DNA of 64,000 nt from NCBI RefSeq assembly GCF_000374565.1, contig NZ_KB894693.1, forward strand, positions 88,281 to 152,280. Reading direction: 5' to 3'. Each line of letters starts with the position of its first letter. The stretch's first letter is position 1. Shown here piece by piece: positions 40,682-62,611 of this stretch. The DNA comes from Siminovitchia fordii DSM 16014 = CIP 108821 (GTDB lineage: Bacteria > Bacillota > Bacilli > Bacillales > Bacillaceae_C). Both the position numbers and the translations under genes were made by a program. A model generated the notes under the pieces. That model saw nothing but the letters and a program-made list of their open reading frames with translations, was not told the DNA's origin and did not search any database.

Positions 40682-40777
40682 AAAAAACCCCTGCCCACAA
40701 AAATAAGATTGCCATTTTTGTAGTCAGGAGTTATGGTTCCTGGTAGAGACCCTCAAACCAGATTATTGAGGTTATAC
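40682..40777 (-). promoter_or_regulatory. Purine riboswitch of pbuE, with C at the specificity position
   Basis: Minus strand aptamer: GTATAACCTC from 40777, TCTGGTTTGAGGGT, CTCTACC, AGGAACCATAACTCCTGACTA. The nucleotide equivalent to position 74 is C (plus-strand G at 40723; GACUAC), where the B. subtilis pbuE aptamer has U (GAUUAC). C74 pairs with guanine or hypoxanthine in known purine riboswitches. The expression platform is a terminator whose 5' arm (CTCCTGACTACAAAAAT) overlaps P3 and P1, and whose 3' arm is followed by TTTTTTG, so ligand should turn the gene on. Confidence 0.92.
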
Positions 40778-40896
40778 ATATTTGCGGTTATAAAAATTTT
40801 TCCTTTAATAATTTACCATATCTGTTCACATTTTTTCAAGTATGAGTTTACACTAAATTGCAAGTGCTGTACATTTTTGGTGGAGTTACCGGTTGT

Positions 40897-43692: not shown

Positions 43693-43901
43693 TAAAAAAA
43701 CAGAAAAGGGTGTTGTTCCCTTCTCTGTCCTTGTACCTGAGAGTTTAACCCTGATTTTCGAGGTTTTCTCCTTTGGTGGCGTTTAACAGATCACGCTCTC
43801 CAGAGTTGCGTCCGAATGTGGTTCTTCTGCCTGAGAGATTTGTTCCAAGGGGTTTTTTGGACCTTGCTCCTTCGGCGGCTTATTAAAAAGCGCTCTCCCA
43901 C
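43693..43901 (-). promoter_or_regulatory. Tandem glycine riboswitch upstream of hesB-lpd-purU
   Basis: Minus strand: first aptamer begins GGGAGAGCG near 43899, with GCCGCCGAAGGAGCAA and CTCTCAGGCAGAAG; second begins GGAGAGCGTGAT near 43801, with GCCACCAAAGGAG and CTCTCAGGTACAAGGACAG. These are the glycine aptamer hallmarks. A terminator (CAGAGAAGGG to CCCTTTTCTG plus TTTTTTT) ends near 43693. Known gcvT-type logic is antitermination with glycine. Confidence 0.95.
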
Positions 43902-43934
43902 AATCTTCACCCGCTATTTTTTCCATTGAAGGCA

Positions 43935-46649: not shown

Positions 46650-46862
46650 AAAAGGACAGGGGAAAGATAGATATCCATCTACCTTCCTCTGTCCTGTTAC
46701 CTGAGAGTTTAACTTCATAAAGAAGTATTCCCCTTGGGTGGCCTGAATAGGCTCTCTCCAGAGACGCGTCCAAACGCGGTGCTTTTACCTGAGAGATTGG
46801 ATCCCATGGTCTTTTTGGGACTTGCTCCTTCGGTGCTAAACTAATTGTTTAGTCTCTCCCGC
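46650..46862 (-). promoter_or_regulatory. Tandem glycine riboswitch upstream of glyA-sdaAB-sdaAA
   Basis: Minus strand: GGGAGAGACT from about 46860, GCACCGAAGGAGCAAG, CTCTCAGGTAAAAG (first aptamer), then GGAGAGAGCC, GCCACCCAAGGGG and CTCTCAGGTAACAGGACAG (second aptamer). A terminator follows: GGACAGAGGAAGGTAGAT pairing with ATCTATCTTTCCCCTGTCC, then TTTTTGTG. It should activate the operon when glycine is high. It occupies most of the 354-bp gap before glyA. Confidence 0.95.
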
Positions 46863-46952
46863 GATTATCATTCGCAAATATTCTGCTTTTTCTAATATAT
46901 CTCAACTCTAAATTTATGTCAACACTGTGAACGAAATAATGAGTAAAACTTT

Positions 46953-54296: not shown

Positions 54297-54791
54297 TTAA
54301 GCTTTCTTCTCTCCGTCTCCGTTTTCGGTGACATTTTTCGCTTCCGTATTTTCAGTAGCTGTATCTTTTGTTTTAGACTGCCCCTTGCTTGATTTTGGGG
54401 ATCCTGCCGATTTACTTGTTTTCTTTTTGGGATTTATACTCTCTGTTCCTGGTTTTGATGCCGTTGGAGATATATTTTGTGATTTCTTTTCCGCAGATTC
54501 TTTAATAAGGAATTTGCTCAACAGCTTTTGGCTAACCTCTGAGTGAGCCCTTGGAATCACATCTGTTGAAATGATTTCTCCGATCAGCTCCCCCTGCTTC
54601 CTTCCTGCTTCCACTGCTGAAGTAACGGCTGCAACATCACCGGAAAGATGTATGGTTACCCCGACGTATCCACTGACTCCAATTACCTTTTCCATTCCGA
54701 TGATTTCCACATCTGCCGCCTTCACCGCAGCATCTGCCGCCGAAACTGCTGTTGTATAACCAACAGTCTCAATTAATCCCAGTGCAAACAA
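54297..54791 (-). CDS. BMC-H shell protein with long low-complexity tail
   Basis: A 164-residue protein. Residues 1-90 are a BMC domain (FALGLIETVGYTTAVSAADAA, STDVIPRAHSEVS) with an enlarged pore region (EKVIGVSGYVGV). Residues about 95-164 are rich in Ser, Lys, Thr and Glu and probably disordered. Start is TTG after GGAGG. Tailed BMC-H proteins such as PduK or EutK carry extra domains, but this tail has no Cys cluster or HTH that I can see. Confidence 0.85.
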   Translation of the reverse strand: MFALGLIETVGYTTAVSAADAAVKAADVEIIGMEKVIGVSGYVGVTIHLSGDVAAVTSAVEAGRKQGELIGEIISTDVIPRAHSEVSQKLLSKFLIKESAEKKSQNISPTASKPGTESINPKKKTSKSAGSPKSSKGQSKTKDTATENTEAKNVTENGDGEKKA

Positions 54792-56075: not shown

Positions 56076-57413
56076 TTATAAGTAATCATTCAAATCAATC
56101 TCAACAGGGACAGACGTTCTTCTGAACATCTCTTTTTCGGAGAGCGGGTATGTTGCATCTATCCCCATTTTGGCAGATACGCCTCTTAAATTATGTGATG
56201 ATTCCAAGGGAGATCCCTTTGTACCCGGGATAATAAAAACATCAAGATCAGCCTGACAGCGAGTGGCAATCGCCCATTCGACATCCTCGGGATTAAAAAT
56301 ATCTACATCTGTATCTACTACGACTACATGCTTCAAATCTTTATCACTGGCAAAAGCGGCCATCGCAGCCTGTTTAGCATCGCCTTCCGTTTGCTTGTCA
56401 ATTTGAATAATGGCATGGAGTCTTGCCGCAGCAGCCATTGTAACGTGGACTGCTTTTACATTTTCAACTGTTTGTCTAACCGTACTTAATAGAGTCATCT
56501 CACGAACAAGACACATCGGAAGTCTTTCTTCCGAACTTGAGGGGAAAATGGTTTGGGAAATTGGATTATTGCGGTAGGTGATGGCTGTCATTTCGACAAT
56601 AGGTTGAGGCTCGTTTCCGCCATAATAACCGCCGAGCTCACCGAAAGCTCCTTCCGGGTCCCTTTCATGCGGAAGTATTTTTCCTTCCAAAACGATTTCG
56701 GCTTCTGCAAGCACTTCAATGTCCACGGTCTTGCATTGAACCACATCAAGCGGCTGTCCAAGAAGCGCTCCGGACACATCCAATTTATCAGCATGGAATA
56801 AATGGGTGCTGACCTGCGATGCCAACACGACTGCGGGGACCACTCCGAACATGACGGCAATTTCCATTGGCTCCCCTCTTTCTTCAAAATGCGCAAATTG
56901 CCGATTGAGTTCAGGGGAAGTTATGACGATATTCGTTTTGTTTCCACCGATAAACTTCATCCTCCGAATGGATGTATACCTCTTCTTTCCTTCAGGATCT
57001 TTTACAACCAAAACTCCTGAAACATAGTAAGCACCGCAGTCTTCTGCATGAAAGGTCGGTATTGGAAAAAAATCATCCAAATCGAACGGCGGCAAAACGA
57101 CATTTTCATGAACGGGACCGGTTGGAACGAGCTTTGTAGGAAGCGGATTCACAATGGCGTCAACCATTTTGGGAATCAATTCGGTTTCATCCACACCAAT
57201 ACTGTCGGCCATGAACTTCCGGTTTCCACCCAAGCCTGCGGCCATGGGAACGGAATAGCCCTGTACATTTTCAAACAGAACAGGCTGCTCCCCTTTCATT
57301 GCTCTTACTACCGCGCCTAGTTCGTATTCGGGACTGACCTCTTTTTTGACATGATGCAATAATCCACGCTTGTCCCAATCAGCAAGCAGTTCTCTCATAT
57401 TAAGGGGATTCAT
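56076..57413 (-). CDS. UbiD-family prenylated-FMN decarboxylase
   Basis: A UbiD-family protein of about 445 residues. The catalytic Arg lies in TSIRRMKF, and the two Glu residues in DPEGAFGELGGYYGG with the family's five-residue spacing; Lys/metal segments are typical. These enzymes reversibly decarboxylate aromatic and heteroaromatic acids using prenylated FMN made by UbiX. Start ATG 57413 is preferred over the GTG nine bases upstream. In this operon a heteroaromatic substrate such as aminoimidazolecarboxylate is plausible. Confidence 0.9.
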   Translation of the reverse strand: MNPLNMRELLADWDKRGLLHHVKKEVSPEYELGAVVRAMKGEQPVLFENVQGYSVPMAAGLGGNRKFMADSIGVDETELIPKMVDAIVNPLPTKLVPTGPVHENVVLPPFDLDDFFPIPTFHAEDCGAYYVSGVLVVKDPEGKKRYTSIRRMKFIGGNKTNIVITSPELNRQFAHFEERGEPMEIAVMFGVVPAVVLASQVSTHLFHADKLDVSGALLGQPLDVVQCKTVDIEVLAEAEIVLEGKILPHERDPEGAFGELGGYYGGNEPQPIVEMTAITYRNNPISQTIFPSSSEERLPMCLVREMTLLSTVRQTVENVKAVHVTMAAAARLHAIIQIDKQTEGDAKQAAMAAFASDKDLKHVVVVDTDVDIFNPEDVEWAIATRCQADLDVFIIPGTKGSPLESSHNLRGVSAKMGIDATYPLSEKEMFRRTSVPVEIDLNDYL

Positions 57414-57966
57414 TCTTCTCACCCCATCTTTCCATCAATTCATGTTCAATACCTAACTCATCCAGTATCCGGGCTACAATGAAGTTCACCAGCTCCCATA
57501 TTTCCGTCGGGCGGTGGTAAAAGCCCGGGCTCGCCGGTAAAATTGAAACCCCCGCTTCGGCCAAAGTTGTCATGTTTCGCAAATGGATCACATGGAAAGG
57601 AGCCTCCCTGGGTACAACCACAAGATTGCGTCTTTCCTTCATAACCACGCTTGCCGCCCGGCTCAACAGCGTATCCCCCACGCCATTGGCAATTGCTCCC
57701 AATGAATTCATTGAGCAAGGTACAATCACCATTCCATCTGTCTTGAATGAGCCGCTGGCTATGGAGGCAAACAGATTTTGATTGTGATGGACGACAGCAT
57801 ATTCTTTTAAATCATCCATTTTGACGCCGCATTCGAATTGCATTACCTTTACTCCCATTTCGGTAGCAACTACGTGGGTTTCAATTCCCAATTGGTGAAG
57901 CGCACGGATCAAGGTATATCCATACAATGATCCGCTTGCTCCCGTTATGCCGACGATAATTCTCAT
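57400..57966 (-). CDS. ubiX: UbiX flavin prenyltransferase
   Basis: A 188-residue flavoprotein with GITGASGSLYGYTLI, VPCSMNSLGAIANGVGDTLL and LVVVPREAPFHVIHLRNM, typical of UbiX. It prenylates FMN to make the UbiD cofactor. It overlaps the start of the ubiD-like gene, so they are coupled. Confidence 0.93.
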   Translation of the reverse strand: MRIIVGITGASGSLYGYTLIRALHQLGIETHVVATEMGVKVMQFECGVKMDDLKEYAVVHHNQNLFASIASGSFKTDGMVIVPCSMNSLGAIANGVGDTLLSRAASVVMKERRNLVVVPREAPFHVIHLRNMTTLAEAGVSILPASPGFYHRPTEIWELVNFIVARILDELGIEHELMERWGEKNESP

Positions 57967-57990: not shown

Positions 57991-58587
57991 TCAGACCGTT
58001 TGTGGATCTTGGGAGAATTTCTTTTTGGCGGCATCCATGTATTCATCTGTAGTCATGACATCCCCAAAAATTCCAATATCACGTAGCCCTCCACGGTGCA
58101 TATCGTCATCCTGGGATGCGGTTGCATCGGATAGCGCGATGACATTATACCCATGGTACAATGCATCGGAAGCTGTACTTCTTACACAAACATTCGTCCA
58201 AACCCCTGTAAGAACAACCGTATCAATCTTCTCTTCTCTTAAGAAAAGGTCGAAATCTGTATAGCTGAATGCACTGTGGCGGCGTTTTTGTACAATGTAA
58301 TCGCCCTTGTCTTCTTCAGGCTGCAGTTCTTCGATAAACTCGGAACCCCATGTACCTTTTATTGCATGTACCGGTCTTACTCTGAAATCCGCATCATTTT
58401 TCCGATGGGCCTCCTGAACATGCACTACCTGAATGCCGTTTTCATGACAAAAGTCGATAGCTTCCCGAATCTTCGGAACAATTTTCTCACCATTCTCACA
58501 TCTCAATGCAGCTTTCTCACCAATGAAATCATTCAGCATGTCAATGATAACGAGCGCATGCTTTTCTCCCTTTAATTGTTGTGTCAT
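57991..58587 (-). CDS. Isochorismatase-family cysteine amidohydrolase
   Basis: A 198-residue cysteine hydrolase with a D-K-C triad: Asp in LVIIDMLNDF, Lys in VQKRRHSAF and Cys in GVWTNVCVRSTA. The family includes N-carbamoylsarcosine amidase, ureidoacrylate amidohydrolase RutB and biuret hydrolase. Following the cyclic amidohydrolase, it is a good candidate to remove a carbamoyl group from a ureido product. GGGAGGAAGG before the start. Confidence 0.88.
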   Translation of the reverse strand: MTQQLKGEKHALVIIDMLNDFIGEKAALRCENGEKIVPKIREAIDFCHENGIQVVHVQEAHRKNDADFRVRPVHAIKGTWGSEFIEELQPEEDKGDYIVQKRRHSAFSYTDFDLFLREEKIDTVVLTGVWTNVCVRSTASDALYHGYNVIALSDATASQDDDMHRGGLRDIGIFGDVMTTDEYMDAAKKKFSQDPQTV

Positions 58588-58603: not shown

Positions 58604-60097
58604 TTAGTTTGTAATCAAGTCTCTTCGTAATGCTTTTTCTACGCGTGGCTTGGCTTCTGCTTCTTTTGCCCCTTCTTCGTAAGTTTCATATTTAATGACG
58701 CGCTCAAGGCTCTGAATAGCCTGTCGTTTGACATATTGTCCATATCCAGCTTCGCCGACGATTCCGCCATTATCTTCGTCATAGACTACTCTGCCGCGAA
58801 CAATTGTCTGGATCGGTTTTCCTTTAAGCTGCAAACCGTGAAGCGGGTTGTATTTGGCCATAGACTCAGTCTTTTGCTCATCGATCGTATATTCACGCTC
58901 AAGATCGATGACAGTAAAGTCAGCGTCACTGCCAATCTCCAAGGCTCCTTTTTTCGGATAAATTCCGAAATGGATCGCGGCATTTCTACTCGTCACTTCG
59001 ACAAAACGTGATAATGAAAGCCTGCCCTTATTCAACCCTTCACTAACAAGGATCGGAACCATTGTTTCCACTCCCGGGATTCCAGGGAAGCTGTTCCAGA
59101 TCGTGGAGTCAGGTGCATCTTTTTCCGTGGCTATTTCATATGGAGCATGGTCTGTTCCAACAAAGTCGATTGTTCCGTCGGCCAAGCCTTGCCAGTGGAC
59201 AATATTATCTTCTTTTTCACGGAGCGGCGGTGCAATTTTGGCAAATGTGCCTCGCTCTGACATGGAGTCTTCAGCGTTGAGCATCAAATAATGCGGGCAT
59301 GTTTCCGCAGTTACTTTCACTCCACGCTTTTTGGCTGCCCTTACAAGTTCCACACCTTCTTTGGTACTCATATGAACAACATGGACCCGAGCACCGGTTG
59401 CTTCTGCAAAGCTAATGATCAATTGGATCGCAGTCTTCTCAGCAAGAGCCATTCTTGCTTCCGCCCATGCCGGACCATCAAGACGGCCTTCCTTTTTCAA
59501 CTTTTCAGAATAGAAGGTACAAATATCATAGTTTTCTGCATGGACGCCGATCGGCATTCCAGTTGGAGCGATATGGCTGAAGATTTCAAGCATCTCTGCA
59601 TCTGAAACCTTAGGGAAAGTAGGAACTGACGGAGTCATATACACTTTAAAAGCAACAACGCCTTCATCAATTTGCGGATGGATATTATCGAGCAGTCCTT
59701 CACGGACATCTTCGCCGGTCATTCCTCCCCAGAAAGCAAAGTCTATGTAAGCCTGATCTTTCAGAGGGGCAAGCTTTTTGTGGAAACTTTCAGCATCTCG
59801 TACGGAAGGCTTGCTGCAACACGGCATGTCGATATGGGTCGTCACTCCGCCAGCAGCTGCTGATCTTGTTCCTGTTGTAAAGGTTTCACGATGAGTGAAT
59901 CCAGGATCCATGAAGTGGGTATGTGGATCAATGCATCCCGGAACCACCAGATTCTCTTTAATATCAATAACCCTATCTGCGGACAAGCCATTTAGTGCTG
60001 AAGTGAACCCAACAATTTTTCCATTGTCAACCAAAATGTTTGTCTTTACCTTTCGATCCCCCTGTGGAATCAGCGCGTTTTTTAAGATTAAATCCAT
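58604..60097 (-). CDS. Cyclic amidohydrolase (dihydropyrimidinase/allantoinase/HydA type)
   Basis: A protein of about 497 residues of the hydantoinase group: VPGCIDPHTHFMDPGFTHRE metal site, the likely carboxylated Lys in VAFKVYMTPS, metal His in HVVHMSTKEG and TCPHYLML, and Asp in VGTDHAPYE. Relatives open the amide ring of hydantoins, dihydropyrimidines or allantoin. The start at ATG 60097 has GGGAGAGAG upstream; the frame extends 16 codons further. It is the first gene after the leader RNA and the first enzyme of the BMC operon, and could act on xanthine by inference. Confidence 0.87.
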   Translation of the reverse strand: MDLILKNALIPQGDRKVKTNILVDNGKIVGFTSALNGLSADRVIDIKENLVVPGCIDPHTHFMDPGFTHRETFTTGTRSAAAGGVTTHIDMPCCSKPSVRDAESFHKKLAPLKDQAYIDFAFWGGMTGEDVREGLLDNIHPQIDEGVVAFKVYMTPSVPTFPKVSDAEMLEIFSHIAPTGMPIGVHAENYDICTFYSEKLKKEGRLDGPAWAEARMALAEKTAIQLIISFAEATGARVHVVHMSTKEGVELVRAAKKRGVKVTAETCPHYLMLNAEDSMSERGTFAKIAPPLREKEDNIVHWQGLADGTIDFVGTDHAPYEIATEKDAPDSTIWNSFPGIPGVETMVPILVSEGLNKGRLSLSRFVEVTSRNAAIHFGIYPKKGALEIGSDADFTVIDLEREYTIDEQKTESMAKYNPLHGLQLKGKPIQTIVRGRVVYDEDNGGIVGEAGYGQYVKRQAIQSLERVIKYETYEEGAKEAEAKPRVEKALRRDLITN

Positions 60098-60302
60098 TTT
60101 TCTCTCTCCCTTCAAAATGATAAATATGCTAAATACTAATTTCATAGAATCATGGGCTTCAAACTAAAATACTTAATTCACCTCCTTAAAAGAAAAGCAA
60201 AAGCTTTCGCCCACAGGTCGAATAATGAGGTGCAGCTTTCTGCTCTCAGAAGGATCGTACCATCGCAGATAAGCTACATTATCTAACCTTTGCTTCCTTT
60301 GT

Positions 60303-60404
60303 ATATAAAAAACCGCAGATTCAAAATACTCCCTCAAAAAATAAGGAATATACTGAATCTGCGGTTCAAATAATCTCCGTACAACAGAGACTTATGTAAC
60401 CGTT
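60303..60404 (-). promoter_or_regulatory. Candidate riboswitch and terminator of the BMC operon
   Basis: Minus strand: AACGGTTACATAAG, then the hairpin TCTCTG-TTGTA-CGGAGA, then TTATTTGAACCGC (60404 to 60361). CGGTT pairs with AACCG to close the element. The terminator AACCGCAGATTCA / TGAATCTGCGGTT plus TTTTTT (60366-60303) uses the same AACCGC, so the two structures are exclusive and ligand binding should permit transcription. The pbuG leader has the same layout and sequence. It lies about 205 bp before the first gene; the 380-bp gap has no other feature I can support. Confidence 0.75.
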
Positions 60405-60477
60405 CTAAAAGCCTTGAATAAAAACGGACCTGCGTTTTCATTCCAGAGTGCTTAGATGTTTTTTGTAAAAATTGGTA

Positions 60478-60840
60478 TTATATAATGTTTTCTTCGAATA
60501 TGACGACACAAACTGCATCTTCGGAATCCGGATCATAGTCTTTTAAAACAGATATTACTTTCATACCAGTAACATCTTCGACTATCTTCTTGAGTTTAAT
60601 CTTAAATTCGACAATCAATGCTGCATCAGCATAAGTTGTGAGTTCCCAAAAATTTTTGCTCAATGCTTTAAAAGCCGTGACTCGTTTATGTTTTGCAAAG
60701 ATAATTACCCTGTCATCACAGATTTCAACCCGTTGGCTTCGGACGCCTGTAGCATAAAATTCCTGGTTTACCCGATTGTACACTTGGGCAATATCCCTTT
60801 TTAATGTTCTTATCTCTATTTCTGATGAGGTTCCATTCAT
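60478..60840 (-). CDS. DUF2294-family protein
   Basis: A 120-residue protein I place in DUF2294 on the pattern VEICDDRVIIFAKHK, VEFKIKLKKIVEDVTGMKVISV and a final VVIFEE. The family is small, of unknown function, and present in many Firmicutes. AAGGGGGG before the start. It lies upstream of the BMC leader RNA on the same strand, so read-through could join it to the operon. Confidence 0.6.
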   Translation of the reverse strand: MNGTSSEIEIRTLKRDIAQVYNRVNQEFYATGVRSQRVEICDDRVIIFAKHKRVTAFKALSKNFWELTTYADAALIVEFKIKLKKIVEDVTGMKVISVLKDYDPDSEDAVCVVIFEENII

Positions 60841-60916
60841 CTTGATGACCCCCTTGCACTTATAATGTTAATGAATTCGCTTACAACTGTCAAGCTATTT
60901 TTTAGAAAATTTAACC

Positions 60917-61135
60917 TTGACAAAAGAAATGGAATGATATAAATTTTTCTGTACATTATTTTACTTTTTTCAGTCAATTTCAGCAGAATTCTGGAAAGGC
61001 AGGAACAAATAATCGTTCTGACTTTTCATATTGGTAAGCGGTTACAACAGTGTCTGTTTACGGATTAGTCTGTACCGCAGCGACAAATTTGCCTTTTGTA
61101 TTTTCAAATGGCAAATTTGTCGCTGCGGTTTTTTT
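60917..61135 (+). promoter_or_regulatory. pbuG promoter, candidate riboswitch and terminator
   Basis: TTGACA at 60917 with TATAAA at 60938 is a possible promoter. The element GCGGTTACAACAGTG, hairpin TCTG-TTTA-CGGA, TTAGTCTGTACCGC spans 61038-61079 and matches the BMC-operon leader. A 20-bp terminator stem follows (61074-61093 with 61110-61129) and then T7; its 5' arm begins ACCGCAG inside the element. No purine-aptamer core (UAUA, CUACC, GACUA) is present. The remainder of the 400-bp gap has no gene. Confidence 0.75.
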
Positions 61136-61240: not shown

Positions 61241-62611
61241 ATGTCTCTGCCACATAAGAGTTTGGAAGAAAAAAAGCAAATGCTGGCCAAAAAGAGAGGG
61301 CCTATCGACCATTTTTTTAAATTGACCGAACGTGGGACCGATGTTAAGACCGAACTGATTGCCGGACTGACAACCTTCATGTCAATCAGCTATATAGTAA
61401 TTGTGATCCCATCCATTTTATCGGAAGCGGGCATGCCAGCAGAAGCAGCACTCGCAGCAACCATCTATGTCAGTGTGATTTGTACGCTTGTCTTCGCCCT
61501 TTGGTCGAACTTCCCAGCTGCAGTGGCTCCGGGTATTGGCCTTGTATCATTCTTTACCTATACGGTAGTAATCGGGCAAGGCTTGACCTGGCAGACAGCA
61601 TTGGGTGCGGTTTTCATTTCAGGGATCATCTTTACCATTCTGACAGTGACCGGTCTCCGAAAAAAAATTATTGATGCCATACCGGAATCAATGAAGTCAG
61701 CCATTACGGTCGGTATCGGTCTATTCATTTCATTTTTGGGATTTAAAAATGCCGGCATTATTGTCGCCAACGAAGCGACCATTGTTTCAATCGGAAACTT
61801 GGCAAATCCCGGGGTACTTCTGGCGTGCTTCGGATTGATTGCCGCAGCTTATTTTACTGCAAAAAATATAAAGGGCGGTTTGCTTTATGCTATACTTGCC
61901 ACCACCGCACTCTCCATGATTATCGGTTATGAGAAAGCCCCGTCTTCATTCAACGATATTGTTTCATTTCAATTGCCAAGTCTTTCCGAAACTTTTATGG
62001 CAATGGATATTAAATCAGCTTTTGGGTATGGGATTCTCACAATTATTTTCTCATTCACAATCGTTGAGCTCTTTGACAACACCGCTACCCTTATCGGCCT
62101 GGCGAAAAAAGGAGGTCTTGTTGACAAAGAAGGCAATATTGAAAAAATCGATCGCGCCCTTCAGGCAGATGCGGTCGGTACGATGCTCAGTGCCACAATG
62201 GGAGGGACTGCCCTGAACGCCTATGCGGAAAATGCAACCGGGGTAGCAGCTGGTGGAAGAACAGGTCTTAAAGCCATTTTTGTCGCTCTATTTCTAGCGC
62301 TTGCATTGGTTTTTGCACCTTTGATCGGTTTTATCCCGACATTTGCTACTGCACCAATTCTGATTCTTGTCGGGGCCTTTATGATTTCTGAGATCCGAAA
62401 TATCTCTTTTGATGACTTCACAACGGTTGTTCCAGTTTTCCTTACTATTATCTTAATGCCTTTAACATTCAGCATAGCTGAAGGTCTTGCATTCGGATTT
62501 GTTTCCTTTACGTTACTGAAGCTGCTGACAGGAAAAAGAGACGAACTCCATTGGATGATGTATATCATCAGCCTGGCATTCGCCATTCATTTTGCATCCA
62601 ACTTTATGTAA
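61241..62611 (+). CDS. pbuG: Guanine/hypoxanthine permease, PbuG/AzgA family
   Basis: A 456-residue NCS2/AzgA-type transporter with about 12-14 hydrophobic segments. Features are FFKLTERGTDVKTELIAGLTTFM (residues about 26-48), PGIGLVSFFTYTVV and VELFDNTATLIGLAKKGGL. It should import guanine, hypoxanthine or other purine bases. ATAAGGAGTG lies before the start. Its leader RNA is shared with the BMC operon, giving coordinated uptake and breakdown. Confidence 0.9.
   Translation: MSLPHKSLEEKKQMLAKKRGPIDHFFKLTERGTDVKTELIAGLTTFMSISYIVIVIPSILSEAGMPAEAALAATIYVSVICTLVFALWSNFPAAVAPGIGLVSFFTYTVVIGQGLTWQTALGAVFISGIIFTILTVTGLRKKIIDAIPESMKSAITVGIGLFISFLGFKNAGIIVANEATIVSIGNLANPGVLLACFGLIAAAYFTAKNIKGGLLYAILATTALSMIIGYEKAPSSFNDIVSFQLPSLSETFMAMDIKSAFGYGILTIIFSFTIVELFDNTATLIGLAKKGGLVDKEGNIEKIDRALQADAVGTMLSATMGGTALNAYAENATGVAAGGRTGLKAIFVALFLALALVFAPLIGFIPTFATAPILILVGAFMISEIRNISFDDFTTVVPVFLTIILMPLTFSIAEGLAFGFVSFTLLKLLTGKRDELHWMMYIISLAFAIHFASNFM

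Follow-up and report, generated by a model that had tools for sequence, protein, structure and literature searches.

The DNA between two divergent transcription units of Siminovitchia fordii encodes two leader RNAs, one on each strand, that share an element of about 41 nt. This element is probably an antiterminator site, read by a protein of the DUF2294 family and working by DUF2294-dependent antitermination. The sequence evidence consists of two mutually exclusive predicted folds, conservation, covariation, a link with the DUF2294 gene, and matching leaders beside paralogues of that gene. The stretch analysed, here called the window, is 64,000 nucleotides long (G000:C9:88281-152280, where G000 is the window's own genome).

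An earlier note on this DNA proposed a candidate new riboswitch. That there is a real, conserved leader of the attenuation type, with no Rfam family, held up; the riboswitch reading did not. The note had named a protein-binding antiterminator site as the outcome that would refute it, and it is towards such a site that the comparative evidence points. It had also overlooked the DUF2294/MpsC gene directly upstream of leader A. The features of the locus are as follows.

60478 to 60840, minus strand: DUF2294/MpsC-family protein of 120 aa (PF10057), the proposed RNA-binding antiterminator
60362 to 60402, minus strand: core of leader A, an antiterminator-type element; P1 pairs 60362-60366 with 60398-60402 and is followed by an internal loop and a hairpin
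60374 to 60390, minus strand: hairpin P2 of leader A, UCUCUG-UUGUA-CGGAGA
60301 to 60366, minus strand: terminator A, whose 5' arm has AACCG(CAG) in common with P1; stem 60311-60366, then a U-rich tail
61039 to 61077, plus strand: core of leader B, the second copy of the element
61053 to 61064, plus strand: hairpin P2 of leader B, UCUG-UUUA-CGGA
61074 to 61135, plus strand: terminator B, whose 5' arm ACCGCAG... is common to P1; ends in a U tract
61241 to 62611, plus strand: purine permease-family protein behind leader B (PF00860 Xan_ur_permease, 160.5 bits, cut-off 27)
58604 to 60145, minus strand: allantoinase/hydantoinase-type amidohydrolase, start probably at 60097 (TIGR03178, 368.3 bits, cut-off 357.85)
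57991 to 58587, minus strand: isochorismatase-like amidohydrolase, scoring below equivalog cut-offs
56076 to 57966, minus strand: decarboxylase pair of UbiX (57400-57966) and UbiD (56076-57422)
54297 to 54791, minus strand: microcompartment shell protein with a BMC domain (PF00936, 77.5 bits)
60865 to 60893, minus strand: promoter-like site of the DUF2294 gene, TTGACA-17-TAACAT (consensus scan only)
60477 to 60506, minus strand: possible second promoter just 5' of leader A, TCGTCA-18-TATAAT (consensus scan only)
60917 to 60945, plus strand: promoter-like site of leader B, TTGACA-17-TAAATT (consensus scan only)

The minus strand thus reads DUF2294 gene, leader A, terminator A, operon. The plus strand reads leader B, terminator B and then the gene of the Xan_ur_permease family, whose product we take to be AzgA/PbuG-like. 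The promoter scan gave 9 sites in the region against 3.5 expected.

The operon of leader A starts with the allantoinase-type amidohydrolase, for which a protein-anchored search gives best matches in Siminovitchia (98 and 96%), and goes on with the isochorismatase-like hydrolase, UbiX, UbiD and microcompartment genes. A BMC shell gene (PF00936), an AllB-type hydrolase and UbiX/UbiD are found together here, as in the gene clusters of Xau, a xanthine-utilisation microcompartment predicted from five Firmicutes genomes in the available text of PMC6620236. Hydrolases, decarboxylase, permease and BMC shell genes are common to both; the word "riboswitch" is absent from the main text of that paper. The earlier note's purine permease and putative purine pathway are both borne out, the latter as an operon of this published kind.

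Other RNAs are found nearby. Two tandem glycine riboswitches lie near the xanthine operon, at 43716-43910 and 46687-46871 (minus strand), adjoining genes that by eye resemble glyA, serine dehydratase and lpd; the pathway of the operon heads towards glycine. Single glycine riboswitches also occur in two related loci, L038 and L045. A purine riboswitch at 40701-40799 (minus strand) sits 5' of what by eye is an MFS-like transporter gene, and 4 of the 6 related loci scanned (L011, L018, L026 and L047) likewise have purine riboswitches inside the locus.

The element consists of a lower stem P1 (CGGU.../...ACCG) with one bulged base, then an internal loop, then a hairpin, and both cores fold in this way, as the earlier note had described. 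The 20-nt pattern CGGTTACANNAGTNTCTGTT matches the window three times at up to 3 mismatches, against 0.16 expected from shuffles, and both leaders match it with 0 mismatches.

The same RNA can fold differently. The element plus 110 nt reaches -53.0 kcal/mol in leader A, versus -15.6 for the element alone; in leader B this is -58.3 versus -14.1. The terminator is the minimum-energy fold in both leaders, and in each copy computed it is far stabler than the lone element. In 49 of 51 copies (a set that includes near-copies), the final 7 nt of the element become part of a stem with the sequence beyond, and a T tract follows this stem. The double use as terminator arm, first seen for ACCGCAG in the two leaders, extends to these copies. 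A hairpin exclusive with an intrinsic terminator is also a feature of protein-dependent antiterminators in general.

An alignment of 40 unique copies (MAFFT, RNAalifold) has both P1 and P2, with double changes in at least one sequence at 5 of the 11 pairs. In it 92.7% of cells are paired and the covariation score is 0.372; slid structures reach no more than 49.9% and 0.188. There are 53 double-change cells versus 20.1 in shuffles, although these are not independent events because many alignment rows are closely related. By the number of covarying pairs (5 vs 4.7) or of pair types (17 vs 16.7) the element is not above shuffles. Four hairpin pairs have changed on both sides, in line with the extra pairs that the longer of the two window copies was said to add to both sides of its hairpin. 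The 40 rows (A4) are the 41 unique copies minus the near-copies L023, L028 and L048, plus L022:8421 and L047:5089; a further 11 pattern matches were removed by hand, as their sequence was coding or had no terminator.

It might be asked if there is any switch at all. A plain conserved terminator, preceded by the remnant of a duplication, would suit the far greater stability of the terminator fold in each copy computed. We hold this to be most improbable, since the terminator stems differ between copies, as had been noted for the first two, while the upstream hairpin covaries and keeps its loop.

Conservation is highest in P1 and in the end of the hairpin, UG-UUNAN-CG (U-A, U.G, G-C, loop UU). 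The internal loop differs among copies in both sequence and length. This matters for a second alternative, a metabolite riboswitch of a new class, in which xanthine, urate or another purine would steady P1/P2 so that termination does not occur, with DUF2294 as a mere neighbour in the regulon. Such a riboswitch would go well with purine permeases and a xanthine pathway as targets, with the two-helix layout, with covariation and with the terminator overlap. Its pocket would however have to be the variable internal loop or the short hairpin loop, and it is the hairpin end that is conserved. On all the evidence, including that on paralogues below, we consider this reading unlikely.

If the element is instead read by the DUF2294 protein, the default would be that the transcript folds into the terminator, and that RNA polymerase stops short of the permease gene or the purine operon. 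The DUF2294 protein, probably when it carries a purine or a product of purine breakdown, would bind the hairpin UG-UUNAN-CG and hold P1 and P2 together. The 3' strand of P1 doubles as the terminator's 5' arm, so that the terminator would be kept from forming. Leader A would then be open for transcription into the xanthine microcompartment operon. Leader B, which has its own promoter, would be opened in trans, and the permease gene would be transcribed. We infer the binding of DUF2294 to RNA, the ON state upon binding, and the ligand. The bound state is put as ON because of the fold geometry only; for the ligand, a purine or one of its breakdown products is the obvious candidate.

A search with the amidohydrolase protein yielded 49 related loci. 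More copies, at steady places, came from a covariance model built on the two window copies, and reading patterns added others; an exact-pattern search of 60 genomes, the window's own among them, returned only the two window copies. Many Bacilli have the element 5' of purine permeases and of the xanthine-type microcompartment operon. Further copies and covariation were what the earlier note had proposed to look for, and both were found, with many copies in related genomes.

The purine-type DUF2294 gene is present in 39 of the 49 related loci (profile search, open frames), and all 39 have the element according to model R2. The stop of the gene and the next element are 38-85 nt apart in 35 of these; in the other four the distance is 158 (L008), 183 (L009), 346 (L044) and 2409 nt (L010). 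Conversely, 40 query loci bear the element, and 39 of them have the purine-type gene. The fortieth, L039, has one in the same genome: it is the only one of the 10 gene-less loci with an element, and its contig is also that of L037, where the gene is found.

The other 9 gene-less loci have no element either, and a whole-genome search found no purine-type gene for them; G456 has a lower-scoring DUF2294 paralogue (101 bits). A credible element was found in 0 of 8 of those 9 genomes, and G451 has one partial 34-nt match (E 0.72). Five Fictibacillus genomes, L013 and L019 have kept the operon and miss both gene and element. On the amidohydrolase tree, the joint absences come to 2 events, 1 of them on starred (well-supported) branches. 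With only one or two independent joint losses, the co-occurrence by itself has no statistical power and is suggestive only.

This cuts both ways for the riboswitch. Element and DUF2294 are present and absent together, which counts against it; in its favour, the joint losses are few, and one genome has the element without the gene. This is Marinithermofilum (L052, G459, apparently identical to G129), where the element lies 5' of a permease and no purine-type DUF2294 was found. DUF2294 accompanies the element in 39 of 40 query loci, and the genome of L039 has it too; this also speaks against another trans-acting factor, discussed below.

Wider samples give a similar picture. In the window's family, the element is found in 5 of 34 genomes, all of one genus, and exactly these also have the purine-type gene (at least 184 bits). 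A class sample of 398 genomes has the purine-type gene at 159 bits or above in 6, of which R2 matches 5. The sixth, G070 (167 bits), gave no R2 match in the class search, which used stricter filters; by eye, the element is directly after the gene and 5' of an amidohydrolase of the same kind. Of the eight class-level genomes with R2 matches, two, G078 (L059) and G191 (L060), were rejected by eye as spurious, the grounds being coding-like sequence without a terminator, or a long perfect hairpin.

Some loci deserve a remark. In L012 (G449:C19:20914-21243), the purine-type DUF2294 profile match spans one stop codon and the open frame is 106 aa. The amidohydrolase tree places both L026 (Pseudomonas sp. 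ISL-84) and L028 (Paenibacillus sp. FSL R5-0490) within Cytobacillus, so they are probably misnamed.

The window's own genome also has a variant third copy, G000:C3:133202-133248 (L064; L144:1703-1749), 5' of a Xan_ur_permease-type gene. It has a different hairpin loop, an E value of only 0.04, and is known from one genome. This copy fits a trans-acting reader and a riboswitch equally. It also precedes a cupin gene and a gene that by eye is like 2-hydroxyacid dehydrogenases.

Other DUF2294 subfamilies have leaders of their own, which are built alike but differ in sequence. Motif 2 is GGGAGAUCUUCAA...UUGAAGRUAAACCG. It covaries, with 96.7% of cells paired and 15 double-change cells versus 3.9. 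Its model R3 (14 copies) matches 51 of the 398 genomes at E 0.05, and 35 at 1e-6 or below. All 35 are PF10057-positive, but 13 of them are no test because they supplied rows of the model, which had been found by looking beside DUF2294 genes. This leaves 22 other genomes, all of which carry PF10057, versus 224 of 398 overall.

In 20 of these 22, a motif-2 copy is within 5.3 kb of DUF2294 on the same strand. In 8 of them (including G104, a near-copy of one of the genomes behind the model) it follows the DUF2294 profile match by 24 to 128 nt. In the other 12 it heads a unit, and the match comes 4.2 to 5.3 kb further downstream on that strand. G052 and G126 have strong matches far from any DUF2294 gene.

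Pfam was run on the genes behind ten motif-2 copies. All six unit-head copies among them precede a Proton_antipo_M protein, presumably MpsA-like, and the remaining four, G126 included, precede an Sbt_1 bicarbonate transporter. Earlier Pfam scans behind motif 2 had given one of each. Over 20 loci scanned, motif 2 had no Rfam match at gathering score. The motif follows DUF2294 genes of an Sbt type or heads the MpsA-like units; examples among L065-L096 are L080:1873-1919 and L088:1854-1899, and tandem copies occur in G045, G303 and G107.

Motif 3 is GUUGGCACUUGGYAGCG..CCUGYUAAAG.CUAACCACC. It starts 4-18 nt past the stop of another DUF2294 subfamily (fdh-type) in 8 loci by pattern, and precedes a molybdopterin oxidoreductase in the one case tested. 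The loci are L101:1869-1911, L103-L107, L120 and L121; in the window's own genome the motif stands 5' of a molybdopterin oxidoreductase gene.

Motif 4 has, by eye, a P1 of GAC-U-GGU/ACC-GUC or GACGGGC/GCCGUC. It follows a DUF2294 subfamily near the purine type and lies 5' of DUF34/NIF3 proteins in 4 of 4 loci tested. It is seen in L143, L145-L147, L190, L194 and L196-L200, where the DUF34/NIF3-like gene and an unnamed second gene form a conserved pair with no assigned function.

When 88 DUF2294 proteins are placed on a tree, the type of leader tracks clade, with 13 changes versus 46.6 when shuffled; this tree has few columns, and its leader labels are partly by eye (L067, L070, L073, L108, L109, L118, m4). 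It leaves out 7 purine-type near-copies, four other near-copies and L112, a two-domain protein. The purine type and the motif-4 type are together in one starred clade. For 25 of the 88 rows, the patterns used recognised no leader directly downstream, and in the genomes of some of these rows motif 2 heads a unit instead.

A more distant set of 20 DUF2294 genes was picked only by similarity to the purine type. L204-L207 come from other families, and score 71-76 bits against the purine-type profile. Here the stretch that separates the DUF2294 gene from a gene for a solute-binding protein (SBP_bac families by Pfam) has a hairpin with a UUUA-type loop. By eye, this hairpin is G-C closed and its 3' strand continues into a terminator. 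Similar hairpins lie 5' of a flavoprotein (UbiX-like) and an isochorismatase in L193 and L195. In L189, L191 and L202, no such hairpin element was seen by eye.

Structure upstream of the terminator is stabler at 59 DUF2294-flanking terminators than at 620 control terminators, which were taken from 19 of the loci (Mann-Whitney p 3e-6). A stricter count of terminators gives 18/59 versus 95/620 (p 0.004). Upstream pairing of terminator arm bases is not enriched (32/59 vs 345/620), and 13 of 72 DUF2294 genes have no terminator within 300 nt. Both results count against DUF2294 as the reader, as do the 25 rows with no leader recognised and the motif-2 matches of G052 and G126. By eye, terminator-like hairpins also occur upstream of DUF2294 in L068, L080, L088 and L089; these are perhaps autoregulation.

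Hairpins specific to a subfamily, and a loop type that is kept in distant members with other targets, are to be expected if the protein reads the RNA. A purine riboswitch leaves the paralogues unexplained: their different but like-built leaders lie 5' of non-purine genes, and distant DUF2294 genes have a similar loop 5' of a solute-binding-protein gene. This also leads to a broader claim, which we put forward with somewhat less assurance than that for the window. DUF2294/MpsC may well be a large family of small antiterminator proteins that bind RNA, as the BglG and HutP families are, in which subfamilies and hairpins have co-evolved and each controls a transporter or a catabolic operon. The targets would be xanthine microcompartments, purine permeases, SbtA-type and MpsA-like bicarbonate transporters, formate-dehydrogenase-like enzymes, the DUF34 operon and a transporter with a solute-binding protein. 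It is possible that CO2, bicarbonate and formate are the common thread of these targets.

The family itself is common, being present in 224 of 398 sampled Bacilli genomes as PF10057. The window protein scores 39.6 bits against a cut-off of 23, and this is its sole Pfam match; among relatives, L018 is above the cut-off at 25.7 and L038 below at 20.0. The window protein is not basic (pI 5.9; the median of the purine type is 7.9), a point against the proposed role.

A structure model of the protein has a pLDDT of 90.5 and a pTM of 0.82. Foldseek finds nothing for it at E 0.001 or below, the best match being a ribosomal-subunit chain at 7.2e-3 with a TM of 0.37. The best VIA match is an FtsK motor domain with a Z of 7.9, in the tool's uninformative range, and a sequence search of solved structures gave one insignificant match (E 0.23). 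The fold comparison, made on a predicted model, neither supports nor excludes RNA binding by DUF2294.

The Pfam name of PF10057, MpsC, denotes part of a Na+-translocating system, in contrast to the RNA role proposed here. According to the available text of PMC6689103, deletion of mpsC in S. aureus had no growth phenotype, mpsC adjoins mpsAB in staphylococci only, and it was judged not to be a functional part of mpsAB. The function of YrhF is called unknown in the available text of PMC8216469. In one open-access literature collection, no report was found of an RNA or antitermination role for DUF2294, PF10057, MpsC, YrhF or YbcI, nor anything that combines antitermination with a bicarbonate transporter.

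If DUF2294 is indeed such a family, a widespread protein without an assigned function gains a testable role as RNA-binding regulator, and a partner is found for several leaders that no Rfam family covers. Simple reporters could then test directly how Bacilli regulate xanthine microcompartments, bicarbonate uptake and formate-dehydrogenase-like enzymes. It also offers a caution: a covarying leader of purine genes is not necessarily a riboswitch.

As to known RNA families, no Rfam family was found at gathering score on the leaders of the window and six related loci. Below threshold there was no fitting family; the best matches there came mostly from models of miRNAs and small RNAs, and lay on the long stems of the terminators. 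The purine riboswitch (RF00167) has no match at the leaders, in a scan that does find the one at 40701-40799, which agrees with the earlier remark that the purine aptamer core is lacking.

NMT1, to which the same note had seen a resemblance, is not among the Rfam matches, in an Rfam copy that may not hold it. What is alike is the purine context and a layout of two helices with an internal loop. According to the available text of PMC7373994, however, NMT1 RNAs are found in Proteobacteria only, are OFF switches and almost never have terminators. The window element is found in Bacilli, has its conservation in the hairpin end, and has terminators in 49 of 51 copies. Kinship was rejected on the basis of distribution and expression platform.

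The layout of the element recalls the targets of known antitermination proteins. The Rfam model RF03530 (bglG-cis-reg) scores 29.1 bits on the leader against a gathering score of 80. This match was discounted, as it runs along the long terminator stem. The RAT sites of BglG, LicT and SacY are short imperfect hairpins that overlap the 5' arm of a terminator, and the regulator gene adjoins the target operon. Both the terminator-overlapping hairpin and the place of the proposed regulator gene are shared with the window; the neighbouring protein is of a different family.

It could be then that another trans factor, an antiterminator of the BglG/LicT or ANTAR type, reads the element, and that DUF2294 senses the signal or is enzymatic. 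The RAT-like layout and the sub-threshold bglG-cis-reg match are in favour of this. Given where that match lies, and the near-constant presence of DUF2294, we give this reading little credence, less than we give the riboswitch.

For DUF2294 as the reader, HutP offers a close parallel in gene order. In the hut leader of Bacillus subtilis, the gene of a small RNA-binding protein comes first, then a terminator and a catabolic operon, and antitermination is activated by the substrate. LicT and HutP share the arrangement of regulator gene, antiterminator plus terminator, and target operon. The window has the order of regulator gene, terminator and target operon in common with HutP, and differs from it in protein family. 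Protein-dependent antitermination is in itself already known; what would be new is the protein family and its RNA sites.
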